Shown here: positions 15,628 through 29,512 of the stretch, in pieces
Position numbering within the stretch: position 1 is the stretch's first letter
Layout: each line of letters opens with the position of its first letter
Assembly: GCF_003385215.1 (NCBI RefSeq)
Contig: NZ_PQHW01000005.1
Location: 1-64,000, forward strand
Direction of reading: 5' to 3'
From: Amycolatopsis thermalba
GTDB taxonomy: Bacteria; Actinomycetota; Actinomycetes; Mycobacteriales; Pseudonocardiaceae
Length of the DNA stretch: 64,000 bases
Made by a program: the position numbers and the translations under genes
Notes under the pieces: generated by a model
The model's database searches: none
Told to the model about the DNA's origin: nothing
What the model saw: only the letters and a program-made list of their open reading frames with translations

Positions 15628-16443
15628 TCAGTGCCGCACCAGTAGCCGGCTCATCAGCGGCAGGTGGTCCGACGCCGCCGGGTTCCCGTCGAGCACCCGC
15701 GTCACCAGCGGCGACACCGAGCGCGACGCGTAGACGTAGTCGATCCGCCGGTCCGGCGCCTCCGCCGGGTAGGTCGCCCCGCCGCCCTTGCCGGACACCG
15801 GCCAGGCGTCGGTGAAAGCCGCGTTCAGCGTGGCGATCTCCGGGGCCTCCGGGAGCGCGTTCAGATCACCCACGAGCACTGCCGGGGCGGTGTCGCCGAT
15901 CAGCTCCGCGATCTGCCGCGTCTGCTCCAGGCGGTCGGTCTGCGCGCTGGCCGCCAGGTGCGTGTCGTACACGTGCACCGCCACCCCGCGCACGTCCACC
16001 ACCGCGTGCAGCAGCCCGCGCTGCTCCTGGCCCGGCGAACGGAACAGGTACGTGTTCTCCCACGCGGTGATCGGGTAGCGGGACAGGATCGCGGTGCCGT
16101 ACTGGATCCGCGGGCTGCCCGCGGCCGGCGGATCGCGGTCGATGTTCGCGCCGAAGACCACGTGGTAGCCGAGCATCCGGGCCAGCTCGCTCGCCTGGTC
16201 GGCCCAGTCGCTGCGCGCCGAGTAGTGCCGGTCCACCTCCTGCAGCCCGACCACGTCGGCGCCGCTGTCCCGGATCACCCCGGCCACGCGCGCGAGGTCG
16301 AGCACGTCGTCGGTGCCCTGCGCGTGGTGGATGTTGAAACTCAGCACGGACAGCACCCGCTGCCGCGGCTCGCTCGCGTTCGCGGGCAGCGCCGCCGCCA
16401 GGACTGCCGTCAGCATCAGCACGATCGTCACGATTCTGCGCAC
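15628..16443 (-). CDS. Secreted endonuclease/exonuclease/phosphatase-family protein
   Basis: A 271-residue exported metal-dependent phosphodiesterase fold. The GTG start at 16443 gives a clean signal peptide (RRIVTIVLMLTAVLAAALPANA) cleaved before SEPRQ. Family motifs: LSVLSFNIHHAQG, DVVGLQEVDRHY with the metal-binding Glu, YDTHLAAS, VGDLNALPEAPE and the final SDHLPL. The substrate may be a phosphodiester, phospholipid head group or nucleic acid. The frame is open upstream to about 17061, but that extension is a pseudogene plus a tandem repeat and is rejected as coding. Confidence 0.85.
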   Translation of the reverse strand: MRRIVTIVLMLTAVLAAALPANASEPRQRVLSVLSFNIHHAQGTDDVLDLARVAGVIRDSGADVVGLQEVDRHYSARSDWADQASELARMLGYHVVFGANIDRDPPAAGSPRIQYGTAILSRYPITAWENTYLFRSPGQEQRGLLHAVVDVRGVAVHVYDTHLAASAQTDRLEQTRQIAELIGDTAPAVLVGDLNALPEAPEIATLNAAFTDAWPVSGKGGGATYPAEAPDRRIDYVYASRSVSPLVTRVLDGNPAASDHLPLMSRLLVRH

Positions 16444-16521
16444 CCGGCGATCTTCGACCGGGCACATGAGGACGCGGTGAACGAGCGGCGAACGTTTCAA
16501 CGCCGTCCGGCGTCGGGTGCC

Positions 16522-16779
16522 GTAGGACTTCCCGAACCGAGCCACCCCGCCGTCCAGCCGGCCGACCTGGTCCTGGCTGTCGCGTTCCCGTCCGAAGTGG
16601 ACCCGGCCGGGGTCGGTGGTGATCGGGACGACGCTGCGGCTCACCGAAACCCGCGGCTCGCGGAGGTGGCCGTGCCGCGCCCACTCCGCGCGGAAGATCG
16701 CGGTCTGCTCGGCCTGCAGCTCGTCGAACGGCACCCCGGTGTCCTCGGTGAGCAGCGTCGAACTCATCAGGTTCAGTCC
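16522..16779 (-). pseudogene. Internal fragment of an LLM-class flavin oxidoreductase gene
   Basis: About 86 codons on the minus strand with typical luciferase-like family sequence: NLMSSTLLTEDTGVPFDELQ, then HLREPRVSVSRSVVPI, HFGRERDSQDQVG and ARFGKSY. In intact relatives this segment belongs to the last third of a 330-residue protein. Here the N-terminal two thirds and the final 40-50 residues are missing; after KSY the frame runs into unrelated sequence. It lies between the EEP gene and the 21-bp tandem repeat, so it is a relic of a deletion. Confidence 0.7.
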
Positions 16780-16841: not shown

Positions 16842-17005
16842 GACTCGCGCGCGTGAACGTGGAACTCGCGCGCGTGAACGTGGAACTCGCGCCCGCGAGC
16901 GGGGGACTCGCGGCGCAGAGCGTGGGACTCGCGGCGCAGAGCGTGGGACTCGCGCCCCCCACCGTGGGACTCGCGCCACCGAGCGTGGGACTCGCGTCCC
17001 CACCC
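16842..17005. repeat. 21-bp tandem repeat, seven full copies and a partial eighth
   Basis: Units start at 16842, 16863, 16884, 16905, 16926, 16947, 16968 and 16989, each beginning GACTCGCG or AACTCGCG and ending near GTGG. Adjacent pairs are identical (units 4 and 5) or nearly so (1 and 2), showing recent slippage. The period is a multiple of three, so both strands stay open, but the encoded 7-residue repeats are low complexity and probably not translated. It occupies most of the gap before the lacI-type promoter. Confidence 0.9.
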
Positions 17006-17097: not shown

Positions 17098-17111
17098 TGG
17101 AATCGTTTCCA
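17098..17111. promoter_or_regulatory. LacI-family operator O1 (TGGAATCGTTTCCA)
   Basis: A 14-bp near-palindrome with a central CG, the hallmark of LacI/GalR-family operators. One mismatch separates it from the perfect copy 32 bp downstream. Between the promoter at 17055 and the lacI-type start. Confidence 0.8.
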
Positions 17112-17129: not shown

Positions 17130-17143
17130 TGGAAACGTTTCCA
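17130..17143. promoter_or_regulatory. LacI-family operator O2 (TGGAAACGTTTCCA)
   Basis: A perfect 14-bp palindrome with central CG, 27 bp before the lacI-type start. Centre-to-centre distance to O1 is 32 bp, about three helical turns, so two dimers could bind the same face of the DNA. Confidence 0.88.
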
Positions 17144-17169: not shown

Positions 17170-18195
17170 ATGACGTCTACACGGGCCACGCTGCTGCAGG
17201 TGGCCGAACGAGCCGGGGTGTCCCTGGCCTCGACCTCCCGTGCCCTGCACGGCACCGGCGCGAGCCCGGCCATGATCGAGCGCGTCCGGGCCGCCGCGGA
17301 GGAGCTGGGCTACAGCCCGGACGCCATCGGCCGGTCGCTGCGGATGAAGAAGACCTTCCAGATCGCCTTCGCGGTCGCCGACATCGGCAACCCGGTCTAC
17401 GTCGAGATGATGCGCGCCATCCACGAGGTCCTCGCCCCGCACGGGTACCGCGTCGTGGTCATGACCACCGGCGACACCTCCACCTCGACCACCGACCTGG
17501 TCCGCAGCCTGAACAGCGGCTTCGTCGACGGCATGGTCATCAGCCCGCTGCGCACCGACGACCGCCTGATCGAGGCGATCCAGCAGGCCGCCGTCCCGGT
17601 CGTGGTCATCGGCCGCGCCCTGGACGCCCACGGCATCAGCTCGGTCTCCACCGACTCCGCGGGCGGCATCGGCCAGGCGGTCCGCCACCTGCAGGACCTG
17701 GGCCGCCGCCGGATCGGCTTCCTCAACGGCCCCCTCGACACCACCCCCGGCCAAGCCCGCCAGCGCGGCTTCCAGGAAGCCATCCGGGCCGACAGCCCCA
17801 CCGAGATCGCCGAGGACTTCACCGTCGCCGCCGGCCTCACCGCCGCGCGCCGCCTCCTCACGAACGCCCCGGAACGCCTCGACGCCATCGTCGCGGCCAA
17901 CGACCTGCTCGCCATCGGCGCCATCCACGCCATCCGCGAACTCGGGCTGTCCGTTCCCGGCGACATCGCGGTGACCGGCATGGACGACACCGAGATCGGC
18001 CGCGTCTTCCACCCGACCCTGACCAGCGTCTCGCTCGGCAGCACCGAGCGCGGCCGCGCCGCCGCGCAGCTCATGCTCCGCCTCGCCGACGACGACGGCC
18101 AGGACGCGCAGCAGGTCACGGTCGGCCCGGAGCTGATCGTGCGTGGTTCCACCGTTCCCGCCGCCGGCGGGCTCACCGAGGGAGGCCGGCGATGA
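17170..18195 (+). CDS. LacI-family transcriptional regulator of the riboside-type operon
   Basis: A 341-residue repressor. The N-terminal helix-turn-helix LLQVAERAGVSLASTSRALH and hinge helix are followed by a periplasmic-binding-like sugar domain (VADIGNPVYVEMMRAIHEVL, DAIVAANDLLAIGAIHAI, GDIAVTGMDDTEI). ATG at 17170 follows GGAGCG. Two operators lie upstream, so autorepression is expected. Its stop overlaps the first permease start as ATGA, so regulator and transporter are co-transcribed; the inducer is probably the imported glycoside or the sugar freed from it. Confidence 0.93.
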   Translation: MTSTRATLLQVAERAGVSLASTSRALHGTGASPAMIERVRAAAEELGYSPDAIGRSLRMKKTFQIAFAVADIGNPVYVEMMRAIHEVLAPHGYRVVVMTTGDTSTSTTDLVRSLNSGFVDGMVISPLRTDDRLIEAIQQAAVPVVVIGRALDAHGISSVSTDSAGGIGQAVRHLQDLGRRRIGFLNGPLDTTPGQARQRGFQEAIRADSPTEIAEDFTVAAGLTAARRLLTNAPERLDAIVAANDLLAIGAIHAIRELGLSVPGDIAVTGMDDTEIGRVFHPTLTSVSLGSTERGRAAAQLMLRLADDDGQDAQQVTVGPELIVRGSTVPAAGGLTEGGRR

Positions 18196-19148
18196 CCCTG
18201 GCCGCGGACACCCGCGCCCCCGCACCAGCCCCGGCGCCTCGCAAGCGCGGCAAGGGCACGATGGCCCGCTCCCGCCGCCGCGAGGCGATCGCGCTGGTGA
18301 TGCCGTCGCTGATCCCGATCCTCGTGCTCAGCGTCGCGCCCCTGGTGATGGGCCTGGCCCTGGCGTTCACCGACGCCCGCCTGGTGCGCGACCCGGACTA
18401 CGACTTCACCGGCATCGACAACTTCACCAAGCTCGCCGGCAACGCGTTCTTCTGGGACAGCCTGCGCATCGGTCTCATTTGGACCGTCGGCGTCACCCTG
18501 CTGCAGCTGGCCGCGTCGATGGGCCTGGCGCTGCTGCTCAACTCCGGACTGAAACTGCAGGGCCTGACCCGCGTCCTCGCGCTCATCCCGTGGGCCATGC
18601 CGCCGGTCGTCGTCGCGATCATGTGGCAGATGATCTACTCGGCCAACGGCGGCCCGCTCAACGCCTTCCTCGGCAGCGTCGGCCTGCCCGCCGACACCAA
18701 CTGGCTCGGCGACTTCTCCACCGCCCTGCCCGCGGTGATCGTCGTCGGCGTGTGGGTCGGCATGCCGCAGACCACCGTCACGCTGCTGGCCGGCCTGCAG
18801 CAGATCCCCCAGGACCTGCACGAGGCCGCGGCGGTGGACCGCGCCGGCGCGTGGCGGCGGTTCACCGCGGTCACCTGGCCCAGCCTGCGGCCGATCGTCA
18901 CCTCGATCACGTCGCTGAACTTCATCTGGAACTTCAACTCGTTCTCGCTGGTCTACGTCCTCACCGAGGGCGGGCCGGGCGGAAAGACGATGGTGCCGGT
19001 GCTCTTCATCTACCTCGAGGCGTTCAAGAACCGCAACATCGGCTACGCGGCGGCGATGGGCCTGGTGCTCGTGATCATCGTCGTGCTGCTGCTGGCGATC
19101 TACCTGCGGTCGCAGTTCCGCGACGACCGCGCCGAGCGGGGGCGGTGA
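18192..19148 (+). CDS. Sugar ABC transporter permease, MalF/UgpA type
   Basis: A 318-residue inner-membrane permease. After a basic, Pro/Ala-rich 30-residue N-terminus come six predicted membrane segments; HEAAAVDRAGAWRRFTAVTW is the EAA loop for the ATPase. The ATG at 18192 overlaps the lacI stop (ATGA). No ATPase gene occurs in this operon, so the importer probably uses a shared MsiK-type ATPase encoded elsewhere, as is common for CUT1 sugar importers in actinomycetes. Confidence 0.9.
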   Translation: MTLAADTRAPAPAPAPRKRGKGTMARSRRREAIALVMPSLIPILVLSVAPLVMGLALAFTDARLVRDPDYDFTGIDNFTKLAGNAFFWDSLRIGLIWTVGVTLLQLAASMGLALLLNSGLKLQGLTRVLALIPWAMPPVVVAIMWQMIYSANGGPLNAFLGSVGLPADTNWLGDFSTALPAVIVVGVWVGMPQTTVTLLAGLQQIPQDLHEAAAVDRAGAWRRFTAVTWPSLRPIVTSITSLNFIWNFNSFSLVYVLTEGGPGGKTMVPVLFIYLEAFKNRNIGYAAAMGLVLVIIVVLLLAIYLRSQFRDDRAERGR

Positions 19149-19152
19149 CGAG

Positions 19153-19980
19153 ATGCGCGTCCTGCTCCGTCCCGCCCAGTACCTGGCGCTGGCGGCCTAC
19201 ATCCTGTTCCTCGGCTTCCCGCTGCTGTGGCTGATCTCGGCGTCGGTGAAGTCCTCCGGCGAGCTCAACTCGCTCTCCGTGAGCCTGCTGCCGCAGCAGT
19301 GGCACTGGGACAACTACTCCGACGCCCTGGACCGCCAGGGCCTGGTGCACTCGGCGGGCAACAGCCTGGTCGTGGCGCTGGTGTCCACCGCGCTGGTGAT
19401 CCTCATCGCGCTGCCGGCGTCCTACGTGCTGGCCCGGCTCAAGGGCAAGATCCGCGCCGCCGGCGTCGGCTGGATCCTGGTGTCCCAGGTGTTCCCGGTG
19501 GTGCTGGTGATCCTGCCGCTGTTCCTGATCCTGCGCACCATCGGGCTGGCCGACAGCCTGGCCGGGCTGACGCTCGTGCACACCACCTACACGCTGCCGT
19601 TCGCGTTGTGGATGCTGCAGGGCTACGTCGCCGCCATCCCGGTCGACCTGGAGGAGGCCGGCGCGATGGACGGCGCCGGCCGGTGGACCGTGCTGCGCCG
19701 GATCGTCTTCCCGCTGCTGATGCCCGGCATCGTCGCCACGGCGATGTTCAGCTTCGTCTCCTCCTGGAACGAGTTCTTCTTCGCGCTGGTGCTGTTGCAG
19801 TCGCCGGAGAACTACACCCTGCCGATCACGCTGAACATGTTCATCGGCGGTGAGGGCAAGGTGTCCCTCGGACCGCTCGCCGCGGGCGCCGTGCTCGCCG
19901 CGATCCCCAGCATCGTCTTCTTCACCATCCTGCGCCGGAGGCTCACCAGCGGGCTGATGGCGGGGGCGGTGAAGGGATGA
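19153..19980 (+). CDS. Sugar ABC transporter permease, MalG/UgpE type
   Basis: A 275-residue inner-membrane permease, partner of the MalF-type subunit 4 bp upstream. The EAA loop is EEAGAMDGAGRWTVLRRIVF, followed by VSSWNEFFFALVLLQSPENY, a typical MalG C-terminal segment. ATG at 19153. Its stop overlaps an ATG at 19977, but the real start of the next gene is slightly further on. Confidence 0.9.
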   Translation: MRVLLRPAQYLALAAYILFLGFPLLWLISASVKSSGELNSLSVSLLPQQWHWDNYSDALDRQGLVHSAGNSLVVALVSTALVILIALPASYVLARLKGKIRAAGVGWILVSQVFPVVLVILPLFLILRTIGLADSLAGLTLVHTTYTLPFALWMLQGYVAAIPVDLEEAGAMDGAGRWTVLRRIVFPLLMPGIVATAMFSFVSSWNEFFFALVLLQSPENYTLPITLNMFIGGEGKVSLGPLAAGAVLAAIPSIVFFTILRRRLTSGLMAGAVKG

Positions 19981-20006
19981 ACCCTGAGAAAACGAAAGGT
20001 CGGTCA

Positions 20007-21281
20007 ATGAAGTCTCGACGTGTGGTGGTGGCCGCGCTCGCGGCAGCCGCGAGCCTGCTGTTCACCGCGTGCTCCAGTGGCGGTGACAGCGCCGGCGGCC
20101 CGGTGACGCTGAAGTTCCAGTCCCTGTCCGACCAGCCCGCGGCCATCGCGGCGACGAACAAGATCGTCGACGACTGGAACAAGGCGCACCCCGACGTCAA
20201 GGTCGAGGTCGTGCAGGCCGGCTGGGACGGGGTCTACGACAAGCTGATCACCCAGTTCAACGCGGGCAGCGCGCCGGACGTCATCCACTACGAGGCGGCC
20301 GGGGTCGTCCCGTTCGCCAGGGACGGCTACCTCGCCGACCTCACGCCCTACCTGTCGGAGCAGAAGAAGACCGACATCCCCAAGGGCGTGCTGGACTCGG
20401 TGACCGTGGACAACCAGGTGATCGCCTACCCGACCGAGCTGCAGTCCTACGTGGTCTTCGCCAACCGCGCCCTGCTGCAGAAGGCCGGGGTCACCATCCC
20501 CACCGGCGACACGATGACCTGGGACCAGTTGCGCGAAATCGCCAGGGCGACCACCCGCGACGGCGCCTTCGGTCTCGGCTGGGGCCTGTCCAGCCCGACC
20601 GCCGCGATGGTCGCGCTCGCGCCCGGGTTCGGCGGCAAGTACTTCGACGGCACCGGCACCGACGCGAAGATCAGCGTCGGCCAGGGTGAGATGGCGCTGC
20701 CGCAGCTGGTGGACGCCATGGCCCACCAGGACAACTCGATCCTGCCGGTCACGCTGACCCAGTCCGGTTCCAAGGCGCTGGCGCCGTTCTACGCCGGGCA
20801 GACCGCGATGACGATCCAGGGTTCGTTCCAGGCCGCCAACATCGCCAAGGACGCGCCCGCCGGGTTCGACTGGATCGTGCTGCCGCCGCTGGCCGGCCCC
20901 GCCGGTCCCGCGCAGGCCGCCAACCCGCAGACGCTGTCGGTGAACAAGGACTCCGCGCACGTCAAGGAGGCCGCCGAGTTCATCGAGTTCTTCACCAGCA
21001 CCGAGAACCTGGCCGCGCTCAACGAGGCCGACGCGCTGATCCCGGCGACCACCTCGGCCCGCGAGGCGCTGACCACCAAGCTCGGCGCGCAGAACGGCTG
21101 GAAGGAGATCCTGTCCTCGGGCCAGTACCTCACCTCCGCGCCGTACCTGTTCGTCGACAAGTACGCGCAGTGGAAGGACACCGTCGCGACCCCGGCCTAC
21201 CAGAAGTTCCTGGCCAAGCAGATCGACGCGGCCGGCCTGTCGAAGGAACTCACCGACGGCTGGAACAGCATCAACCGGTGA
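20007..21281 (+). CDS. Sugar ABC transporter substrate-binding lipoprotein
   Basis: A 424-residue extracellular solute-binding protein, family 1. The signal peptide KSRRVVVAALAAAASLLFTAC ends in a lipobox, anchoring the protein outside the membrane. The mature part begins CSSGGDSAGGPVTLKFQSL and has the usual QFNAGSAPDVIHYEAAG motif of carbohydrate binders. ATG at 20007 is chosen over 19977 because GAAAGGT precedes it and it starts directly with the signal peptide. The ligand is unknown; the enzymes downstream suggest a ribosylated compound. Confidence 0.9.
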   Translation: MKSRRVVVAALAAAASLLFTACSSGGDSAGGPVTLKFQSLSDQPAAIAATNKIVDDWNKAHPDVKVEVVQAGWDGVYDKLITQFNAGSAPDVIHYEAAGVVPFARDGYLADLTPYLSEQKKTDIPKGVLDSVTVDNQVIAYPTELQSYVVFANRALLQKAGVTIPTGDTMTWDQLREIARATTRDGAFGLGWGLSSPTAAMVALAPGFGGKYFDGTGTDAKISVGQGEMALPQLVDAMAHQDNSILPVTLTQSGSKALAPFYAGQTAMTIQGSFQAANIAKDAPAGFDWIVLPPLAGPAGPAQAANPQTLSVNKDSAHVKEAAEFIEFFTSTENLAALNEADALIPATTSAREALTTKLGAQNGWKEILSSGQYLTSAPYLFVDKYAQWKDTVATPAYQKFLAKQIDAAGLSKELTDGWNSINR

Positions 21282-21313
21282 CCGACCGGTCCTCGACCAT
21301 CGAGAAGGGAAAC

Positions 21314-22495
21314 GTGAAGCCGGTGACCTGGCTGGAAGACCGAGCGGTGGCGGTGCTCACCGGCGCGGCCGTGGGGGACGCGCTGGGTGGCGCCACCGAG
21401 GGGTGGACCCCGGAACAGATCGAGGAACGCCACGGCGGCCGGGTGACCGGCATCGTCGGTCCGTGGTTCCCGAACTGGCGGGACGCGCGCCCGATCGCGC
21501 CGTACCACAAGGGGGACGGGCACGTCACCGACGACACCCTGATGACCCGCGCGCTCGTCGAGGTGTACGCGAAGCGCCGCGCGCACCTCGACGCGTACGC
21601 GATGGCCGAGGACCTGGTGCCGCTGATGATCGGCGAGCCGCGGTGGGTTCCCGAGCTGGAGTCCACCGCGCTGCTGCTGCAGCGGGTGTTCCTGGCGGAG
21701 AAGTGGATCGTCGCCCGGCTCCACTACGGGCACGTCGACCCGCGGGAGGCCGGGGTCGGCAACGTGGTCAACTGCGGCGCGGCGATGTACGTGGCGCCGG
21801 TCGGGCTCGCCAACGCCGGGGACCCGCGCGGTGCCTACGCGGAGGCGATCGACCTGACCGGCGCCCACCAGTCCAGCTACGGCCGGGAGGCGGCGGGCGT
21901 GTTCGCGGCGATGGTCGCGGCGTCGGTCGCCCCCGGCGCCACGCTGGACGACGTCGTCGCGGCCGCGCTCGACGTGGCGCACGACGGCACCGCCGCCGCG
22001 CTGCGGGCGGTGGTGGACGCCTTCGACGGCTGGACTTCCGCGCCGTCGGACGACGAGGAGGAGCGGGAGCTGGCCCGGCTGATCCGGGACACGGTCGCGC
22101 CGTACGACTCGGTGGGGCCGGAGTACCGGCAGATGTCGATGGACGCGCGGCGCCCGTCGCGCACCAAGTCGATCGAAGAGCTGCCGGCCGCGCTCGGGTT
22201 CGTGCTCGGCCACCGCGGCGACTACCGCGGCGCGGTGCTGGGCGCGGTGAACTACGGCCGGGACGCCGACTCGATCGCCGTGATGGCCGGCGCGGTGTGC
22301 GCCGGTCTCGGCGGCACCACGGCGGTGCCGGCGGAGTGGATCGACGCGATCGGCGAGGCGAGCCGCATGGACCTGCGGGAGACCGGCCGGCTGATGGCCT
22401 CGGCCGCGGCGGACATCCTGAAGGCCGACCGGGAACGCGCCCTGGCCCGGTTGCGGGCCCTGGACGAGCTCGACCAGGCGGGAGCCGGGTCGTGA
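21314..22495 (+). CDS. ADP-ribosylglycohydrolase-family protein 1
   Basis: A 393-residue member of the DraG/ARH fold. Metal-binding motifs are visible: GAAVGDALGGATEG near the start, HVTDDTLMT in the middle and GRDADSIAVMAGAVCAGLGG near the C-terminus. The family hydrolyses N- or O-linked ribosyl bonds with Mg2+. In an operon with a sugar importer and a ribokinase-like kinase the substrate is more likely a small riboside than an ADP-ribosylated protein; this is an inference. GTG at 21314 has GAGAAGGGA upstream. It shares only the fold with the second copy. Confidence 0.9.
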   Translation: MKPVTWLEDRAVAVLTGAAVGDALGGATEGWTPEQIEERHGGRVTGIVGPWFPNWRDARPIAPYHKGDGHVTDDTLMTRALVEVYAKRRAHLDAYAMAEDLVPLMIGEPRWVPELESTALLLQRVFLAEKWIVARLHYGHVDPREAGVGNVVNCGAAMYVAPVGLANAGDPRGAYAEAIDLTGAHQSSYGREAAGVFAAMVAASVAPGATLDDVVAAALDVAHDGTAAALRAVVDAFDGWTSAPSDDEEERELARLIRDTVAPYDSVGPEYRQMSMDARRPSRTKSIEELPAALGFVLGHRGDYRGAVLGAVNYGRDADSIAVMAGAVCAGLGGTTAVPAEWIDAIGEASRMDLRETGRLMASAAADILKADRERALARLRALDELDQAGAGS

Positions 22496-23820
22496 GGCTG
22501 ACCTGGGCCCAGCCCGAGGACCTGCTCGCGCACGAGCTGGTGCAGTCCGCTGTGGAGGGACGCGACGTCACCGCGATCCGCGACCGCTGGGTCGCGGCCG
22601 GTGGCGACCCGGTGCCCGCCGCCAGCGGAGCGGGTCCGAACCCGGCGCCGCCGGAACTGCGGGCCCTGGCGCGGAACCTGCTCGACGAGCTGGCCGCGCT
22701 GCCCACGCCACCGGCGCCGCACGAACCGGACGAGTGGGACGCGATCGTCGCGGTGCTGCCGCCCGCGCCGGAGCTGCCCGGCGGCAGCGGGCGCGTGCTG
22801 GACGCGTGGACCGGCCGCGCCGCTGGCTGCCTGCTCGGCAAGCCGGTCGAGAAGATCCCCCGCGAGGGCATCGAGGAGATCCTGCGCGCCACCGGCCGCT
22901 GGCCGCTCGACCGGTGGTTCACCGCGGTGGGCCTGCCGGACGAGGTCGCGCGGCGGTGGCCGTGGAACCGCCGCTCCGCCCCGACCTCGCTGGAGGAGAA
23001 CATCGACGGGATGCCGGAGGACGACGACCTCAACTACCCGATGCTCGCGCTCACGCTCCTGGAGCAGCGCGGCCGCGGGTTCACCACCGACGACGTCGCC
23101 CAGCTGTGGCTGGACAACCTGCCCGCCGGGCGGGTGTTCACGGCCGAGCGGGCCGCCTACCGCAACATCCTCGACGCCCGCCCGGTGCCCGAGACCGCCA
23201 CGCACCACAACCCGTTCCGCGAGTGGATCGGCGCGCTCATCCGGACCGACGTGTTCGGCTGGGTCTCGCCCGGCGACGTGCGGGCCGCGGCCCGGCTGGC
23301 CTGGACCGACGCGCGCCTGAGCCACACCCGCAACGGCGTCTACGGCGCGATGTGGGCCGCCGCGCTCGCGTCGGCGTCGATGGTGTGCGGCACCGTCGAC
23401 GAGGTCCTCGACGCCGCGGAAACCGTGGTTCCGCCGGACAGCCGGCTGGCGCGGGCCGTCCGGTTCGGACGGTCGCTGGCCGGTCTGGGCACCAGCGCGG
23501 GACTGGACCGCCTGCACGCCGAATACGGTCACCTGCACTGGGTCCACGTCCTCAACAACGCCGCCGTGATCGCCTTCGCCCTCGCCGGGGGTGGCGGCGA
23601 GTTCGGGCCGAGCGTGTCCATCGCCGTCACCGCGGGCTGGGACACCGACTCCGCGGCCGCCACCGTCGGCGGGGTCGTCGGCGCCCTGCACGGCGTGCCC
23701 GAGCAGTGGGCGAAACCGCTGGACAACCGCATCGCGACGTCCCTGCCCGGCGGGGAGCGGCGCATCACCGACCTGGCGGCCCGCACGGCCGCCCTGACCG
23801 TGGAACGAGGTGCCGCATGA
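22492..23820 (+). CDS. ADP-ribosylglycohydrolase-family protein 2
   Basis: A 442-residue protein with an extra 100-residue N-terminal region (RLTWAQPEDLLAHELVQSAV) ahead of the DraG-like domain (GRAAGCLLGKPVEKIPREGI). Acidic motifs EDDDLNYPML, and GWDTDSAAATVGGVVGAL near the C-terminus, are the expected metal ligands. GTG at 22492 overlaps the previous stop as GTGA. The first motif lacks the usual GDALG spelling, so specificity differs from copy 1; the two may act on different substrates or successive bonds. A cytoplasmic location is expected, since no signal peptide is seen. Confidence 0.88.
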   Translation: MRLTWAQPEDLLAHELVQSAVEGRDVTAIRDRWVAAGGDPVPAASGAGPNPAPPELRALARNLLDELAALPTPPAPHEPDEWDAIVAVLPPAPELPGGSGRVLDAWTGRAAGCLLGKPVEKIPREGIEEILRATGRWPLDRWFTAVGLPDEVARRWPWNRRSAPTSLEENIDGMPEDDDLNYPMLALTLLEQRGRGFTTDDVAQLWLDNLPAGRVFTAERAAYRNILDARPVPETATHHNPFREWIGALIRTDVFGWVSPGDVRAAARLAWTDARLSHTRNGVYGAMWAAALASASMVCGTVDEVLDAAETVVPPDSRLARAVRFGRSLAGLGTSAGLDRLHAEYGHLHWVHVLNNAAVIAFALAGGGGEFGPSVSIAVTAGWDTDSAAATVGGVVGALHGVPEQWAKPLDNRIATSLPGGERRITDLAARTAALTVERGAA

Positions 23821-24710
23821 CCGGGCAGGTCGTGGTCGTCGGCTCGGCCAACGTCGACCTCGTCGTCGACGTGCCGCGCCATCCCGGCGGCGGGGAGACC
23901 ATCCTCGGCGGCGACCTGCGCCGCACTCCCGGCGGCAAGGGCGCCAACCAGGCCGTCGCCGCCGCGCGCGCCGGGGGAGCGGAGACCACGTTCGCCGGCG
24001 CGCTGGGCACCGACGAGTCCGCGGAGCTGCTGCTGACCTCGCTGGAGCGGGCCGGGGTCCGGACCGATCTGGTGTCGCGTGTGGACGCTCCCACCGGCAC
24101 CGCGCTGATCACCGTTTCGCCTGATGGCGAGAACGCGATCGTCGTCGCGCCGGGTGCCAACGCGCGCCTGGAGCTGACCGCCGCCCAGGTCGAGCGGATC
24201 GCGCACGCCGACGTCGTGCTGGCCCAGCTGGAGATCCCGCTCGGCACCGTCCGCGCGGCCGCCGCCGCGCGACGCCCCGGCGCCGTGATGGCCCTCAACG
24301 CCGCGCCGTCCCGGGACCTGCCCGCGGACCTCTGGGACGCGCTGGACCTGCTCGTCGTCAACGAGCACGAGGCCGCCGACCTCGCGCACACCGACGGCAC
24401 CCCGGAGGACCTCGCCAAGGTGCTCCTGGAGCGCGTGCCCGCCGTCGTCATCACCCTCGGCGCCGACGGTTCCCTGGTCGCCGAACGCGACCGGCCCACC
24501 GTGCGGGTGCCGGGGATTCGCGTGGAGGCCGTCGACACGACCGGCGCCGGGGACACCTTCTGCGGTGTGCTCGCCGCCGGGCTGGCCCGCGGCCTGGCCC
24601 TGCCCGAGGCGGCCCGGCTCGCCGGTGTCGCGGCCGCGCTCGCGGTCACCCGGCCCGGCGCGCAGGACGCCGTCCCCACCGCCGCGGAGGTCGAGGAGAG
24701 CTCGCGATGA
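23817..24710 (+). CDS. rbsK: Ribokinase-like PfkB sugar kinase
   Basis: A 297-residue PfkB-family kinase. VVGSANVDLVVDVPRHPGGG and TPGGKGANQAVAAARAGG are the N-terminal ribokinase signatures and VDTTGAGDTFCGVLAAGLA carries the catalytic Asp and anion hole. It should phosphorylate D-ribose or a close sugar at the 5-position using ATP. ATG at 23817 overlaps the previous stop (ATGA). Capture of sugar released by the two glycohydrolases is the likely role. The symbol reflects family resemblance; the sugar is not proven. Confidence 0.85.
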   Translation: MTGQVVVVGSANVDLVVDVPRHPGGGETILGGDLRRTPGGKGANQAVAAARAGGAETTFAGALGTDESAELLLTSLERAGVRTDLVSRVDAPTGTALITVSPDGENAIVVAPGANARLELTAAQVERIAHADVVLAQLEIPLGTVRAAAAARRPGAVMALNAAPSRDLPADLWDALDLLVVNEHEAADLAHTDGTPEDLAKVLLERVPAVVITLGADGSLVAERDRPTVRVPGIRVEAVDTTGAGDTFCGVLAAGLARGLALPEAARLAGVAAALAVTRPGAQDAVPTAAEVEESSR

Positions 24711-26629
24711 CCTACACCTTCGACCCGCTCGTGCCGCGCCCGATCGACCGGCCCACCGACGTCCCGCTCGGCCCGCTCACCGAGGAGCAGCTGATCGCGC
24801 TGGACGAGGCGAAGATCTTCGCCGGCCCGCCGGACCCGGCCGACCGCCCAGCGTGGCGGGAACGGCTGCGCGAGTGGCGCGAGGACGCCCGCCGCCGACA
24901 CGGCTACACCGGCGCCGCCTACGAGCGGCCGGGCGCGGCGTGGGCGGCGCGGTGCCGCACCGTCGCGCAGGTGTGGCTGTGGGACGAGCTGCTGTACGAC
25001 TTCGAGCAGGGCCGGTTCACGCCCGAGCGGTTCCTCGCCGACGCGCGGGAGCGGTTGGCCGGGCTGGACGCGGTCGTGCTGTGGCACGCCTACCCGGTGA
25101 TCGGCCTGGACGACCGCAACCAGTGGGACTTCTACCGCGACGTGCCCGGGCTGACCGATCTCGTGCGGCAGTTCCACGACGCCGGCCTGCACGTGTTCGT
25201 CGACTACAACCCGTGGGACGTCGGCACCCGCCGCGGCGGCGACGACCTCACCGAGCTGGCCTCTCTGGTCGCCGACCTCGGCGCGGACGGTGTCTTCCTG
25301 GACACCCTGAAGAAGGCCGAACCGGAGTTCGTCGAGGCCCTGGAGCGGGCCAGGCCGGGGATCGTGCTGGAGGGCGAGTCGAAGCTGCCGGTCGAGCGCA
25401 TCGAGGACCACGCGTCGTCGTGGGCGCAGTTCTTCGCCGACTCGCCGGTGCCCGGTGTGCTGCGCGCGCACTGGTACGAGCGGCGGCACATGCAGCACCA
25501 CGTCCGCCGCTGGCACCGCGACCACACCGAGGAGCTGCAGTCGGCGTGGCTCAACGGCGTCGGCGTGATGGTGTGGGAGGTCGTCTTCGGCGTGTGGGTC
25601 GGCTGGTCGCGCCGGGACGCGGCGACCGTGCGGCGCATGGTCACCGTCCAGCGCGCGGCCGAGGAGCTGCTGCTGCACGGGGAGTGGACGCCGCTGGCGG
25701 AACTGGCGCCCGGCGCCGAGGAAGCCGGGGTGTACGGCTCCCGCTGGGACCTCGGTGACCAGACACTGTGGACGGTCGTCAACCGGAGCGACCAGGACTA
25801 CACCGGACCGGTCGCTCCCGGAATTCCGTTGCTGGGTCCGGGTGTGCCGGCGCGGGGGATCGCGGCGTTCCTGCGTTCGGGGACGGAACCGGCGTGGGTG
25901 AAGGACCTGCCGGACGTGCCGCACGACCCCGACGCCCGGTTCCCGCACCGCCTCGCCGTGCGCAAACAGCCGGCTCGCAGCAGCGGCACGCCCGCCCCGG
26001 ACGCGGTGGTCGTGCCGGCCGGGCCGTACGTGCTGACCGTCCGCTACCGCGCTCGCGAAACCGGGATGTATCAGGGCGCGCCGTACGTCGGCGAGTGGAA
26101 GCCGCTGCCGCCCCGGCTGCACGACGCGCGGACCCTGCAACGGGACGGCGTGCTCGCCAACCCGGTGGCCGTCGCCGCGACCGAGGTGACCAACGCCGAG
26201 TTCACCGAGTTCCTGGAGCGGACCGGCTACCGGCCCGCGCAGCCGCACCGGTTCCTGGCCTGGAACACCGACCCGGACGCGCCGGTGACCCATGTGGATC
26301 TCGACGACGCCCGCGCGTACTGCGCGTGGCGCGGCGGGCGGCTGCCCACCGAGGACGAATGGCAGCTCGCGGGCGAGACCGGCCGGCTGCGCCGCGGCGA
26401 ACCGGCCGTGTGGAACTGGACCGAGAGCGAGCACTCCGACGGCCGCACCCGGTTCGTGATGCTCAAGGGCGGCTGCGACTACCACGCGGAAGGCTCCGAC
26501 TGGTACGTCGAAGGCGGCCGCCGCGACCCGGACTACAGCGTGAAGCTGCTCCTGCCCGGGCTCGGCCTGGCGCGCAGCGCGTCGGTCGGGTTCCGGTGCG
26601 CGTGGGACCTGCCGGAGGTGACCGCGTGA
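24707..26629 (+). CDS. TIM-barrel glycosidase-like / SUMF1-domain fusion protein
   Basis: A 640-residue cytoplasmic protein with two parts. Residues about 60-330 look like a glycoside-hydrolase TIM barrel: HVFVDYNPWDVGTRR, LGADGVFLDTLKKAEPEF with a candidate catalytic Asp, and IVLEGESKLPVE with an acidic residue. Residues about 440-640 are a formylglycine-generating-enzyme/SUMF1 fold: VTNAEFTEFLERTGY, YCAWRGGRLPTEDEWQLAGE, NWTESEHSDG, MLKGGCDYHAEGSDWY and SVGFRCAW. The paired active-site cysteines of true FGE are absent, so it should not make formylglycine. Start ATG at 24707 overlaps rbsK (ATGA). I do not recognise a characterised homologue; a role in the glycoside pathway is inferred from position. 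Confidence 0.8.
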   Translation: MTYTFDPLVPRPIDRPTDVPLGPLTEEQLIALDEAKIFAGPPDPADRPAWRERLREWREDARRRHGYTGAAYERPGAAWAARCRTVAQVWLWDELLYDFEQGRFTPERFLADARERLAGLDAVVLWHAYPVIGLDDRNQWDFYRDVPGLTDLVRQFHDAGLHVFVDYNPWDVGTRRGGDDLTELASLVADLGADGVFLDTLKKAEPEFVEALERARPGIVLEGESKLPVERIEDHASSWAQFFADSPVPGVLRAHWYERRHMQHHVRRWHRDHTEELQSAWLNGVGVMVWEVVFGVWVGWSRRDAATVRRMVTVQRAAEELLLHGEWTPLAELAPGAEEAGVYGSRWDLGDQTLWTVVNRSDQDYTGPVAPGIPLLGPGVPARGIAAFLRSGTEPAWVKDLPDVPHDPDARFPHRLAVRKQPARSSGTPAPDAVVVPAGPYVLTVRYRARETGMYQGAPYVGEWKPLPPRLHDARTLQRDGVLANPVAVAATEVTNAEFTEFLERTGYRPAQPHRFLAWNTDPDAPVTHVDLDDARAYCAWRGGRLPTEDEWQLAGETGRLRRGEPAVWNWTESEHSDGRTRFVMLKGGCDYHAEGSDWYVEGGRRDPDYSVKLLLPGLGLARSASVGFRCAWDLPEVTA

Positions 26630-27834
26630 CCGTTTCCCGCGACCCCGCCGCCGGGGCACTCGCCGGGTTGCGCGTCGTCGACGCCGCCACCCTCTTCGCC
26701 GGGCCGATGGCCGCCATGCACCTGGGCGACATGGGCGCCGAGGTGATCAAGGTCGAGCACCCGCGGCGGCCGGATCCGGCACGCAACCACGGCGTCGCCA
26801 AGGACGGCGTCAACCTGTGGTGGAAGACGCTCGGCCGCAACAAGCGCACGATCACCGCCGACCTCGGCAAACCCGGCGGCCGCGAGGTGTTCCTGAAGCT
26901 GGCCGAGCGGTCGGACGTGATCATCGAGAACTTCCGGCCCGGCACGCTGGAGCGCTGGGACCTGGGCTACGACGAGCTGTCGGCGCGCAACCCGCGGCTG
27001 GTGCTCGCCCGCGTCACCGGGTTCGGGCAGATCGGGCCGTACCGGCGGCGGCCCGGGTTCGGCACGCTCGCCGAGGCGATGAGCGGGTTCGCGGCCGCCA
27101 CCGGGGAACCGGACGGGCCGCCGACGCTGCCGCCGTTCGGGCTCGCCGACGGCATCGCCTCGCTCGCCACCGCCTACGCGATCATGGTGGCGCTCTCGGC
27201 GCGGGAACGGACCGGGCGCGGGCAGGTGGTCGACACCGCGATCGTCGAGCCGATCCTGGCGATGCTCGGGCCGCAGATCACGCGGTGGGACCAGCTGCGT
27301 TCGGTGCAGCCGCGCACCGGCAACCGGTCGGTGAACAACGCGCCGCGCAACACCTACCGCACCGGCGACGGGCAGTGGGTCGCGGTGTCCACGTCGGCGC
27401 AGTCGATCGCCGAGCGCGTGATGCGGCTGGTGGGACGGCCCGACCTGATCGACGAGCCGTGGTTCGCCAGCGGCGCCGAGCGCGCGAAGCACGCCGACGA
27501 GCTGGACGAGGCGGTGGGCGCGTGGATCGGGCGGCACACGCGCGACGAGGTGGTCGCCGAGTTCGAGGCGGCGCAGGCCGCGGTGGCGCCGATCTACGAC
27601 GCCGCGGACATCGTCGAGGACCCGCAGTTCCGCGCGCTGGGCACCATCCACGAGATCGAGGATCCGGAGCTGGGGCCGACGCTCATGCAGGGGCCGATCT
27701 TCCGGCTGTCCGGCCACGACGGGGTCGTCGCGCACACCGGGCGGGCGCACGGCGCCGACACCGACGAGGTGCTGGGGGAGCTGGGTTTCCCGGCGGACGA
27801 GGTGGCGCGGATGCGTGCGGAGGGGGCGGTATGA
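26626..27834 (+). CDS. Class III CoA-transferase (CaiB/BaiF family)
   Basis: A 402-residue enzyme that moves CoA between an acyl-CoA donor and a carboxylic acid. The N-terminal LRVVDAATLFAGPMAAMHLG and DMGAEVIKVEHP, and the central FGLADGIASLATAYA segment with the expected catalytic Asp, are typical. GTG at 26626 overlaps the fusion-protein stop as GTGA. Directly followed by a CitE-like lyase; together they resemble citramalate/malate-type routes in which an acid is activated to its CoA ester and then split. The acid here is unknown. Confidence 0.9.
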   Translation: MTVSRDPAAGALAGLRVVDAATLFAGPMAAMHLGDMGAEVIKVEHPRRPDPARNHGVAKDGVNLWWKTLGRNKRTITADLGKPGGREVFLKLAERSDVIIENFRPGTLERWDLGYDELSARNPRLVLARVTGFGQIGPYRRRPGFGTLAEAMSGFAAATGEPDGPPTLPPFGLADGIASLATAYAIMVALSARERTGRGQVVDTAIVEPILAMLGPQITRWDQLRSVQPRTGNRSVNNAPRNTYRTGDGQWVAVSTSAQSIAERVMRLVGRPDLIDEPWFASGAERAKHADELDEAVGAWIGRHTRDEVVAEFEAAQAAVAPIYDAADIVEDPQFRALGTIHEIEDPELGPTLMQGPIFRLSGHDGVVAHTGRAHGADTDEVLGELGFPADEVARMRAEGAV

Positions 27835-28673
27835 GCGCGCCGGCGTTGACCCTGCTGTACGTGCCCGCCGACCGGCCGGACCGGGTGGCGAAGGCGCTGG
27901 ATTCGGCGGCGGACGTCGTGCTCGTCGACCTGGAGGACGCCGTCGCGCCGTCGCGCAAGGACGAGGCGCGGGCCCACGCCGTGCGGTTGCTGTCGGAGCC
28001 GCTCGGGCGGCGGGTGCAGGTGCGGATCAACCACGCGAGCACCCCCTGGCACACGGCGGACCTGGCGGCACTGGCGGGCCTGCCGGCCGCGGTGGGCGCG
28101 CGGATCCCGAAGGTCGAGTCACCGGAGGAGATCCGCGCGCTGGCCGGCGCGTTGCCCGGTCGCGAGCTGCACCCGCTCATCGAATCCGCGCTCGGCGTCG
28201 AGCGGGCGCTGGAGATCGCGACGGCGTCGCCGCAGGTCGCCTCGATCGGCCTCGGCGAGGCTGATCTGCGGTCCGACCTGGGCGTGACCGACGAGGCGGG
28301 GCTGGCCTGGGCGCGCAGCCGGGTCGTGGTCGCCGCACGGGCGGCGCGCCTGGTCCCACCGGTCATGTCGGCGTACACCAACGTGCGCGACCTCGACGGG
28401 CTGGCGGCGTCCTGCCGGGCCGGGCGGGCGCTGGGATTCCGCGGCCGGACGGCCATCCACCCGGCCCAGCTGGACACGATCCGGGCCGCGTTCCTGCCCA
28501 GCGCCCAGGAAGTCTCCCGGGCCCGCGAGGTGCTGTCCCGTTTGGACGACGCCACCGCGGCCGGCGTGGGAGCGATCGCCCTGACCGACGGCACGTTCCT
28601 GGACGTCGCGATGCTGGAACAGGCCCGCACTGTGCTCGCGCTGGCGGGGGAACGGCCGGACGTCACGGCCTGA
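27831..28673 (+). CDS. HpcH/HpaI aldolase/citrate lyase (CitE)-family CoA-ester lyase
   Basis: A 280-residue TIM-barrel lyase. LLYVPADRPDRVAKAL and DVVLVDLEDAVAPSRKDEAR with the Mg-binding acidic residues, LHPLIESALGVERALEIA, IGLGEADLRSDLG and GFRGRTAIHPAQ match the malyl-/citramalyl-CoA lyase group. It should cleave a 3-hydroxyacyl-CoA to acetyl-CoA plus a 2-oxo acid such as pyruvate or glyoxylate. ATG at 27831 overlaps the CoA-transferase stop (ATGA). It is the last gene of the operon. Confidence 0.88.
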   Translation: MSAPALTLLYVPADRPDRVAKALDSAADVVLVDLEDAVAPSRKDEARAHAVRLLSEPLGRRVQVRINHASTPWHTADLAALAGLPAAVGARIPKVESPEEIRALAGALPGRELHPLIESALGVERALEIATASPQVASIGLGEADLRSDLGVTDEAGLAWARSRVVVAARAARLVPPVMSAYTNVRDLDGLAASCRAGRALGFRGRTAIHPAQLDTIRAAFLPSAQEVSRAREVLSRLDDATAAGVGAIALTDGTFLDVAMLEQARTVLALAGERPDVTA

Positions 28674-28967: not shown

Positions 28968-29130
28968 GAGAAGCCTGCCGCCGAAACCGGCAGCGGCGTC
29001 TCGATCGCACCTGCTTCAACGGCCGATCACCTCCGCTCAGCTCTGCCCGGCCCCGCCGCCTTGCGTCGCCGCTTCACGACGGCGCAGGGCGGTTTTCGTG
29101 GCATGGCCGTGCCGTCCGCGGCGGACCCAG

Positions 29131-29362
29131 GCCGCTTCGCGGCGCGGTCGTGCCCTCCCGCGGCGGTGCTGCGCCGCCCGACGGTGGTGCCGGGCCGCTT
29201 GGCTGGGCGGTGGTGGCGTGCCGCGGTGGCGCCGGGCCGCTTCGTGGCGCGGTCGTGCTCTCCCGCGGCGGTGCTGCGCCGCCCGACGGTGGTGCCGGGC
29301 CGCTTGGCTGGGCGGTGGTGGCGTGCCGCGGTGGCGCCGGGCCGCTTCGTGGCGCGGTCGTG
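29131..29362. repeat. 105-bp tandem repeat, two full copies and a partial third
   Basis: Copies start at 29131, 29236 and 29341, each with GCCGCTTCG followed by TGGCGCGGTCGTG or CGGCGCGGTCGTG. The two full copies differ at only a few positions, indicating a recent duplication. The period is a multiple of three, so reading frames stay open on both strands, but the predicted peptides are low complexity; I do not call a gene. Confidence 0.85.
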
Positions 29363-29512
29363 CCGCCCCGCTGGTGCGGCTCCGCCGGCCAGCCACCGGC
29401 GGCGGAGGCAGTCGCCCTGCGCCCGCTCGGACCCGGTGGTGGCTTCTCGCTCATACCCGGCCAGCCACCCGCCGCCGGGACACTCGCCGCCAGCAGTCCT
29501 GCCGGACTCCCC

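Follow-up and report, generated by a model that had tools for sequence, protein, structure and literature searches.

Proteins with the ADP-ribosylglycohydrolase (ARH) fold have mostly been described as enzymes that reverse ADP-ribosylation. The E. coli yegTUV genes encode an ARH-fold protein, a sugar kinase and a transporter side by side, whose functions are called unknown in that report (PMC10819704), and a staphylococcal trio is described with an ARH gene, a permease gene and a ribokinase gene side by side, the passages on it giving no substrate (PMC3637587). In bacterial itaconate degradation a CoA-transferase, a hydratase and a citramalyl-CoA lyase take part, and Rv2498c is an (S)-citramalyl-CoA and (R)-HMG-CoA lyase (PMC6689899).

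The operon described here consists of ten same-strand genes (17170-28673, + strand) of an Amycolatopsis-type genome and lies in a window, the whole stretch of DNA that was analysed, of 64 kb. It has the same grouping of ARH, kinase or ribokinase and transporter genes as yegTUV and the staphylococcal trio, but the permeases of those two systems are of the MFS nucleoside-symporter type or the cytosine/purine type whereas the importer of the operon is of the CUT1 type. Both have a single ARH gene, and a glycoside hydrolase (GH)-like protein, a CoA-transferase and a lyase are not reported in the passages on those two systems. Like itaconate degradation and Rv2498c, the operon combines a CoA-transferase with a CitE-like lyase that would yield acetyl-CoA and a keto acid, but it has no hydratase gene, its lyase scores below the RipC_Ccl cut-off and the pair is embedded among sugar genes. 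No description of the ten-gene combination was found in the literature searched, which left most subscription papers and all preprints outside. The enzyme families are known and, on this weak evidence, the combination is apparently undescribed in that literature.

Gene content and probable regulation of the operon

The genes and the two sites upstream of them are as follows.

17098-17111, +, second, imperfect operator-like palindrome TGGAATCGTTTCCA, one mismatch to TGGAAACGTTTCCA
17130-17143, +, probable LacI operator, palindrome TGGAAACGTTTCCA, with 26 nt between its end and the lacI ATG
17170-18195, +, LacI-family repressor (lacI), PF00356 and PF13377
18192-19148, +, CUT1-type permease 1 (UgpA/MalF-like), PF00528, NCBIfam matches below cut-off
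19153-19980, +, CUT1-type permease 2 (GlcU/MalG-like), PF00528
20007-21281, +, solute-binding protein (SBP), lipoprotein by its N terminus as judged by eye, SBP_bac_1, E 1.1e-43
21278-22495, +, ARH1, ARH-fold enzyme, GTG start, PF03747, 161.4 bits
22492-23820, +, ARH2, ARH-fold enzyme, GTG start, PF03747, 150.9 bits
23817-24710, +, ribokinase-like PfkB kinase, TIGR02152, 275.9 bits
24707-26629, +, TIM-SUMF1, glycoside-hydrolase-like TIM barrel with C-terminal SUMF1 domain, PF03781 and AF2 model
26626-27834, +, CaiB-type (family III) CoA-transferase, GTG start, PF02515 (CoA_transf_3), E 9.4e-118
27831-28673, +, CitE-like beta-hydroxyacyl-CoA lyase, PF03328 (HpcH/HpaI)

The preliminary description had placed ten genes here, nearly all overlapping, and this was borne out: seven of the nine junctions are 4-nt overlaps, and the other two are gaps of 4 nt (permease 1/permease 2) and 26 nt (permease 2/SBP). 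The ARH1/ARH2 junction is not an overlap but a gap of 150-320 nt in seven of the eight other complete loci of the same genus. With NCBIfam models every match to the ten proteins fell below its curated cut-off, including those of several LacI-type models to the lacI product, and ARH2 had zero matches. None of the ten genes codes for the ATPase of the CUT1 importer; a gene elsewhere in the genome has a product that shares 64% identity with UgpC from the Mycolicibacterium ARH cluster.

The exact sequence TGGAAACGTTTCCA has no second copy in the 7.24-Mb assembly, and it is found upstream of lacI in 26 of the 68 loci with enough upstream sequence, with near variants in others. The second site, TGGAATCGTTTCCA, starts 32 nt upstream of the main one, and these two are the only matches in the window at up to two mismatches, where 0.06 would be expected. 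A LacI site ahead of the CaiB and CitE genes was not found when the window was searched with up to two mismatches, and both genes overlap their upstream neighbours. The overlaps and the operator ahead of lacI make the single LacI-controlled unit proposed earlier probable, and this probable regulated unit would comprise an importer, glycosidase-type enzymes, a kinase-type enzyme and two CoA-dependent acid enzymes.

Conservation of the operon

The locus was compared with 80 others, all actinobacterial by title, which are the best 80 of 507 confirmed TIM-SUMF1 relatives, and because only these were kept the set leans to close relatives. The ten genes are collinear in 60 of these best 80 loci; among the remaining 20, 13 are without the kinase gene and seven are interrupted by contig ends. 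In a sample of the same genus, ARH2 was present in 10 of 19 genomes and the ten-gene order was kept in nine of those ten. Genes were called in the relatives by a simple codon-score script, and single gene starts may therefore be off; with this caller the TIM/CaiB gap is within 20 nt in 63 of 71 called neighbours and the CaiB/CitE gap in 67 of 76.

Among 296 genomes of the class, 47 have a close ARH1 and all 47 also have a close CaiB, which lies downstream of ARH1 on the same strand within 10 kb in 44 of them. In the same sample CaiB is not downstream of ARH1 in 24 of the 68 genomes that have it. A search of 296 genomes from the phylum, in which no more than four candidates per genome were scored, found TIM-SUMF1 at E 1e-30 in only one. 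The expectations that gene order is conserved in relatives and that ARH and CaiB co-occur across genomes were both supported. That the ten genes form one complete set holds in part: the order is mostly kept, but the kinase is missing from the 13 loci mentioned above and CaiB and CitE are both missing in L079 and L025.

The ARH proteins and the kinase

Both ARH proteins exceed the PF03747 gathering score of 26.2. For these and the following alignments the window was combined with loci chosen from the 80, excluding gene calls that were truncated or in doubt. E41, T84-D85-D86 and D329/D331/S332 are invariant in ARH1 (45 aligned sequences), as are E120, D177-D179 and D384/D386/S387 in ARH2 (44 aligned sequences). 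The C-terminal acidic motif, one of the metal-binding motifs of the fold, aligns with solved relatives, and we take the N-terminal one to be the other. In ARH2 about 100 residues precede the matched domain, and its AF2 model (pLDDT 93.6) has Foldseek matches to MJ1187, ARH3 and DraG.

Since the two proteins resemble DraG and ARH3 in both sequence and fold, they could act on an ADP-ribosylated protein or nucleotide, and the operon would then serve ADP-ribose signalling and not nutrition. We consider this highly improbable. ARH1 scores far below the cut-offs of the DraG equivalog TIGR02662 (51.2 against 337.05 bits) and of Tri1 (47.5 against 490), and ARH2 matches neither model; no ADP-ribosyltransferase family was found among the ten proteins with Pfam and NCBIfam; and ARH genes are repeatedly in the company of a sugar importer, a kinase and acid enzymes. 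Signalling was rejected for the lack of a transferase family and the sugar-operon context.

The best NCBIfam model for the kinase is ribokinase TIGR02152, whose cut-off of 299.65 lies close above its score, and its closest solved relatives are ribokinases. When aligned to these it has the signatures GS-N-D, GGKGANQ, QLE and GAGDTF, which are presumably those of the sugar and ATP sites of ribokinase. The gene is also missing from three of nine Streptomyces-like loci. Fourteen kinase-less genomes, namely those of these three and of 11 of the 13 kinase-less loci (L054 and L101 were left out), were searched for another ribokinase, and a family match elsewhere in the genome was found in 14 of 14. 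The best match covers most of the model in 13 of them, with three above the cut-off and one of the 13 carrying an internal stop; in G458 the match is only in pieces. This search says little on the loss of the kinase because 14 of 14 control genomes matched likewise.

The furanose need not be ribose: ARH could cleave another furanoside, such as a beta-L-arabinofuranoside or one of an apiose-like sugar, and the kinase would then take that sugar. A Sphingopyxis plasmid carries a ribokinase, TIM-SUMF1 and a CoA-transferase together with a GH127-family (beta-L-arabinofuranosidase domain) protein at the expected place of ARH, and the bonds of ARH and GH127 substrates are both 1,2-cis furanosides. 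The same plasmid also speaks for the pathway proposed below. Against this, the kinase scores best as a ribokinase and is nearest to solved ribokinases, and a sugar other than ribose appears to us unlikely.

The TIM-SUMF1 protein and the esterase

The TIM barrel with its beta domain spans about residues 41-395, ahead of the SUMF1 domain (PF03781), and no Pfam match was found for the barrel part. The AF2 model (pLDDT 86.7) superposes on GH129 (8rzk) and on a GH13-type amylase (1g1y), with Z 18.2 for each. Among the 50 matches listed, VIA gave Z 15.5-18.2 and a (beta/alpha)8 barrel with a beta C-terminal domain as in clan GH-H; only Foldseek's top chains were aligned, and the rows reflect the barrel. 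D199 after barrel strand 4 and E224 after strand 5 are invariant in 47 aligned sequences, from which L107 was left out as a fusion. The GH13/GH129-type enzymes share this Asp and Glu, and we take their roles from those enzymes; the TIM protein differs from them in its identity of 9-15%, its extra C-terminal SUMF1 domain and its barrel without a Pfam match. The TIM domain models as a glycoside-hydrolase barrel of GH13/GH129-like type. Both domains of the TIM-barrel/SUMF1 fusion seen earlier are there, but the glycosidase-like nature of the first had been missed.

No conserved Cys pair was seen in the GGS-D region of the SUMF1 domain in the consensus of the 47 sequences. This is presumably where the catalytic residues of an FGE- or EgtB-type SUMF1 would be, and such catalysis is disfavoured, though only that, by the missing pair.

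An esterase gene adjoins the operon or lies inside it in 22 of the best 80 loci, and in L107 the esterase is fused to TIM-SUMF1; in the other 58, where some stretches were short, such an esterase was not found. Because the esterase recurs at the operon, the acid may be ester-linked and not the aglycone of a ribosyl group, and we regard this as at least as likely as an aglycone acid.

The CoA-transferase and the lyase

CaiB matches PF02515 over residues 12-378 with 393.9 bits, and all named subfamilies fall below their NCBIfam cut-offs. Its nearest solved relative is a benzylsuccinate CoA-transferase subunit, and HMG CoA-transferase is among the next. The best NCBIfam model for the lyase is RipC_Ccl (168.9 bits against a cut-off of 375, so that the equivalog is not assigned). 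R65, E118 and D145 are invariant in 42 aligned lyases and common to five solved relatives, and by analogy we infer that E118 and D145 would be the Mg ligands and R65 the catalytic Arg. In Rv2498c, a more distant solved relative, the Mg ligands are given as Glu112 and Asp138 (PMC6689899).

The family assignments of the preliminary description are supported by sequence: a DraG-fold ARH pair, with its acidic motifs kept and invariant in the aligned sets; a ribokinase-like kinase, with ribokinases nearest by NCBIfam and among solved relatives; and CaiB with a citramalyl-CoA-lyase-like partner, for which RipC_Ccl is the best model.

Proposed pathway

The most likely function of the operon, to which we would give about an even chance, is the LacI-controlled degradation of an acylated furanoside to pentose phosphate, acetyl-CoA and an oxo acid. 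The CUT1 importer would take up a small glycoside with a ribose-type furanosyl residue and an attached acid, a branched 3-hydroxy dicarboxylic one of the citramalate, HMG or malate class. This acid would be bound as an ester in some species and be removed there by the esterase of the same cluster. Cleavage of the glycosidic bonds would fall to the TIM protein, with its glycosidase-like barrel, and to both ARH-fold enzymes. The released pentose would be phosphorylated by the ribokinase-like enzyme or, where this is missing, by another cellular kinase. CaiB would convert the acid to its CoA thioester, using succinyl-CoA or a comparable donor. A retro-Claisen cleavage of this thioester by the CitE-like lyase would yield acetyl-CoA together with a 2-oxo acid or acetoacetate. 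As guesses at the substrate we name HMG-acylated plant glycosides, apiosides and methanopterin fragments, none of which is favoured over another.

ARH-fold proteins are found repeatedly next to sugar importers and kinases, here with an acid-cleaving pair attached, as would be expected of catabolic enzymes. Many genera keep the operon in well-conserved form, which makes a common natural compound its probable substrate. We tentatively suggest, as a possibility that is itself doubtful, that furanosides with a branched 3-hydroxy dicarboxylic acid are an undescribed nutrient class common enough for a dedicated operon in many actinobacterial genera, that the ARH fold includes new nutritional furanosidases and that TIM-SUMF1(-esterase) is the founder of a new glycoside hydrolase family. 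The identity of the substrate would give functions to many proteins annotated as ADP-ribosylglycohydrolase and SUMF1, and with a single operator and a self-contained gene set the question is directly testable in laboratory actinomycetes.

Variant clusters

In the nine Streptomyces-like loci CaiB-CitE is paired with four ARH genes, and searches there for relatives of TIM-SUMF1, the importer and the esterase gave no match. In L139, L140 and L143 the remaining unnamed upstream genes proved to be ARH relatives, and so did the two extra genes of L112. The set ARH1-ARH2-(kinase)-CaiB-CitE common to these nine loci, and the linkage of ARH1 and CaiB in 44 of 47 genomes, would suit a riboside whose own aglycone is the acid, with ARH hydrolysis directly freeing the hydroxy acid for CaiB and CitE. 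This was demoted because of the esterase, and ARH clusters without CaiB-CitE also argue against it; moreover, we know of no natural riboside with such an aglycone. We judge an aglycone acid to be rather improbable.

Importer and ARH genes without CaiB-CitE were found in Nonomuraea (L032), on four rhizobial plasmids and in Mycolicibacterium (L033); ARH1 relatives were on 21 plasmid records, of which the contexts of the four rhizobial ones were examined, and Nonomuraea came in through another match. The rhizobial clusters and that of the Mycolicibacterium plasmid read lacI-permeases-SBP-ARH(-ARH)-ugpC(-ribokinase), and they share the importer type and ARH with the operon, with ribokinase in two of five examined, but TIM-SUMF1, CaiB and CitE are not annotated in the stretches examined, where annotation is at the family level only. 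On a Spirosoma plasmid TIM-SUMF1 stands without any annotated ARH, kinase or CoA-transferase in its vicinity. Like the missing TIM-SUMF1, importer and esterase of the Streptomyces-like loci and the single TIM-SUMF1 match in the phylum sample, this speaks against the proposed pathway.

Conversely, contexts of CaiB unlinked to ARH1 were covered in 15 of the 24 genomes, with family searches of chosen neighbours in L152, L153, L154, L160 and L166. CaiB-CitE adjoins a PF04199 cyclase in L152, L153 and L154, with MmgE/PrpD beside it in the first two, and in L166 an allantoinase/dihydroorotase-like neighbour of CaiB takes the place of the cyclase. The cyclase and MmgE/PrpD neighbours suit a free-standing acid module. 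ARH and CaiB-CitE are, as judged from gene context, separable modules, and from the ARH clusters without CaiB-CitE and the 24 of 68 CaiB genomes without this link it follows that the sugar and acid steps need not serve one molecule. CaiB and CitE might then be metabolic passengers in a sugar operon, serving another substrate, and their occurrence without ARH and their absence from some ARH operons agree with this. However, CaiB is present in all 47 ARH1 genomes of the sample and linked in 44, and ARH and CaiB come together in two different gene arrangements with close spacing in most loci, and we think it quite unlikely that they are passengers; degradation of an acylated furanoside remains our preferred reading.

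In one genome (L027) the neighbours of ARH1 and ARH2 are a LarA-like racemase, two Gfo/Idh/MocA oxidoreductases and a UPF0261/PEP-hydrolase-like pair, an arrangement that is a single case and carries no weight in the readings above.

Organization and conservation of the operon

The ten genes listed in the preliminary description, namely, those for LacI, two CUT1 permeases, a solute-binding lipoprotein (SBP), the ADP-ribosylglycohydrolase-fold proteins ARH1 and ARH2, a PfkB kinase, TIM-SUMF1 (a glycosidase-like barrel with a SUMF1 domain), the CoA-transferase CaiB, and the CitE-like lyase, were matched by gene calls and profile searches at 17170-28673 on the + strand of contig C168 of the 7.24-Mb assembly. 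Seven of the nine junctions are 4-nt overlaps and the other two are +4 and +26 nt. The operon is a bounded unit because the adjacent called genes sit on the opposite strand:

15628-16767, opposite strand, called gene before the operon
29513-30082, opposite strand, called gene after the operon

Both flanks carry a GC-rich tandem repeat, of a 21-nt unit in 7.4 copies upstream (16842-16996) and a 105-nt unit in 2.5 copies downstream (29109-29371).

The same operon is on a contig of Amycolatopsis deserti, with 95-100% protein identity to the window. Strong ARH2 matches were found in 10 of 19 same-genus genomes, counting that of the window, and the ten-gene order is intact in nine of these ten. The most diverged same-genus locus (L025, genome G011) is 74-86% identical, and neither CaiB nor CitE was found within its 19.9-kb stretch. 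A scan of named genomes with a TIM-SUMF1 alignment gave at least 507 confirmed relatives, and of the best 80 of these, 60 carry the complete ten-gene set in collinear, same-strand order; 7 of the remaining 20 are merely cut by contig ends and 13 are without PfkB. In those 13, ARH2 directly adjoins TIM-SUMF1 (L054 is also cut by a contig end and L079 is also without CaiB and CitE). Among called neighbours in the same best 80, the spacing is at most 20 nt for TIM-SUMF1/CaiB in 63 of 71 and for CaiB/CitE in 67 of 76. Tandem duplications have enlarged the CaiB/CitE junction, with loss of the 4-nt overlap, in L019 (4790-5252, 149 nt x 3.1) and L018 (4957-5396, 113 nt x 4.0); a further duplication, of 155 nt x 2.0, lies at the ARH1/ARH2 junction of L018 (10684-10991). 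When up to four candidates were scored in each of 296 phylum-drawn genomes, the genome of the window was the only one with TIM-SUMF1 at E 1e-30, and ARH2 was found at E 1e-40 in 15 of 396 genomes. Thus, the operon is conserved where it is present and is not universal.

Linkage of ARH1 and CaiB

Linkage was examined in 296 class-drawn genomes that were selected independently of the operon, with cut-offs of E ≤1e-90 for ARH1 and E ≤1e-130 for CaiB. ARH1 was present in 47 and CaiB in 68 genomes, and all 47 with ARH1 had CaiB (the hypergeometric figure, 1.6e-38, takes no account of relatedness and should not be read as a probability). The co-occurrence of ARH and CaiB genes was thus borne out. In 44 of the 47, CaiB is encoded downstream of ARH1 in the same orientation and no more than 10 kb away; in the other three it is upstream (G597) or on a separate contig (G561 and G568). 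The downstream link is missing in 24 of the 68 CaiB genomes. Among these 24, CaiB-CitE lies immediately upstream of lacI-permease-permease-SBP-ARH1-ARH2 in L162, and ARH2-like pieces adjoin CaiB in L155.

Predicted operator

A perfect 14-bp palindrome, TGGAAACGTTTCCA, lies upstream of lacI with its end 26 nt from the gene start, and a second copy with one mismatch begins 32 nt further upstream. These two are the only matches in the window at up to two mismatches, against 0.06 expected, and exact TGGAAACGTTTCCA occurs once in the entire assembly. No operator palindrome was found upstream of CaiB in the window. The palindromes before lacI and their absence before CaiB support, at the level of a predicted operator, the ten genes being a single LacI-controlled unit. 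Where 250 nt or more of sequence precedes lacI, as it does in 68 loci, exact TGGAAACGTTTCCA was the best palindrome in 26 and near variants were found in many others; four had no palindrome above threshold upstream of lacI, and several of the best palindromes resemble chance matches. Exact TGGAAACGTTTCCA was present in 32 of 148 loci, a set that includes many short or unrelated loci. Just past CitE in L019 (3810-4113) there is a tandem array whose consensus unit includes an operator-like palindrome, TGGAATCGATTCCA.

Protein families and the proposed pathway

The acidic motifs of ARH1 and ARH2 are preserved in every aligned sequence, and the predicted ARH2 model matches MJ1187, ARH3, and DraG. 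Neither protein scored anywhere near the DraG or Tri1 equivalogs. Alignment of the PfkB kinase to solved ribokinases spans nearly its full length. The barrel of TIM-SUMF1 had no Pfam match. Superposition of its predicted model (pLDDT 86.7) on GH129 and GH13 enzymes, mostly over residues 41-395, gave Z values as high as 18.2, with sequence identities of 9-15%. Invariant in TIM-SUMF1 are Asp199, which follows strand 4, and Glu224, which follows strand 5, the positions that the nucleophile and the acid/base occupy in clan GH-H. Among solved proteins, CaiB is closest to a benzylsuccinate CoA-transferase subunit, and HMG CoA-transferase is one of the next closest; the best model for CitE is RipC/Ccl, with a score under its cut-off. 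A relative of this CitE, Rv2498c, is described in PMC6689899 as a lyase that cleaves (S)-citramalyl-CoA as well as (R)-HMG-CoA; the authors of that paper regard functional assignment by bioinformatics only as unreliable in this lyase family.

Relatives of a PF00756 esterase (about 295-830 residues, eight confirmed by Pfam) are in 22 of the best 80 of at least 507 loci, either between TIM-SUMF1 and CaiB or directly after CitE. In L079 the esterase follows TIM-SUMF1, where CaiB and CitE are missing, and in L107 (Nocardioides terrae) a single protein of 925 residues has the esterase fused C-terminally to the SUMF1 domain. By eye, at least two of five esterase N termini resemble signal peptides. 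Because of this recurrence in or near the operon, the substrate is probably an ester, at least in one of its common forms, and an ester bond may be what holds the acid.

The account that we prefer is that the importer would take up an acylated furanoside, the TIM protein and the ARHs would cleave its glycosidic bonds, the released pentose would be phosphorylated, and the acid, presumably from the same molecule, would undergo CoA-dependent cleavage. The analysis establishes gene order and content, linkage, the sequence of the operator, conserved residues, and fold classes, from which the catalytic steps and the joint origin of sugar and acid are proposed. The operon had been read as a route for a ribosylated hydroxy acid, an outline that is supported in part: a conserved catabolic operon of these families is real, and ribose and a hydroxy acid are putative identities of the sugar and the acid. 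The families are known and their combination is new, and our literature search found no published description of this operon. The function of the related yegTUV operon is given as not established in the available text of PMC10819704, and a staphylococcal ARH trio is given by family names only in that of PMC3637587.

Separate occurrence of the modules

Nine Streptomyces-like loci have four ARH genes-(PfkB)-CaiB-CitE, with CaiB 69-72% and CitE 51-56% identical to those of the window; PfkB is absent from three, and no TIM-SUMF1, permease, SBP, or esterase match was found alongside in any of the nine. In Nonomuraea (L032), lacI, permeases, SBP, four ARH genes, and PfkB occur in 21 kb in which no TIM, CaiB, or CitE was found. 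The four rhizobial plasmid clusters examined all contain lacI-permeases-SBP-ARH1 and ugpC; three add a second, roughly 700-residue ARH and one adds a ribokinase. Mycolicibacterium arabiense has a single ARH with an importer, a ribokinase, and ugpC. TIM-SUMF1 is found in a TonB receptor-ribokinase-TIM-SUMF1-GH127-CoA-transferase cluster on a Sphingopyxis plasmid and, with no partner gene in the nearby annotation, on a Spirosoma plasmid. CaiB-CitE without ARH1 adjoins a PF04199 cyclase in all three loci searched (L152, L153, and L154), together with MmgE/PrpD in both loci where that gene was searched (L152 and L153) and, for L153 and L154, an IclR regulator. In L160 and L166, CaiB has no recognised CitE; its neighbour is a cyclase in the former and an allantoinase/dihydroorotase-like gene in the latter. 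Judged from gene content, the CaiB(-CitE)-cyclase set of L152, L153, L154, and L160 is a recurrent putative acid-degradation cluster. From these separate occurrences, the operon appears to be an ARH/importer/kinase module joined to a CaiB-CitE acid module, with the TIM protein as a third part.

Two extra ARH paralogues precede ARH1 in L110 (4275-6271), L112 (4541-6561), and the Streptomyces-like L137-L145; the presence of four ARH genes per operon suggests that the substrate contains several linkages. A further uncharacterised ARH cluster, in one genome, is L027 (4754-13415), where ARH1 and ARH2 adjoin a CUT1-like importer, two Gfo/Idh/MocA oxidoreductases, a UPF0261 and PEP-hydrolase-like pair, and a LarA-type lactate racemase.
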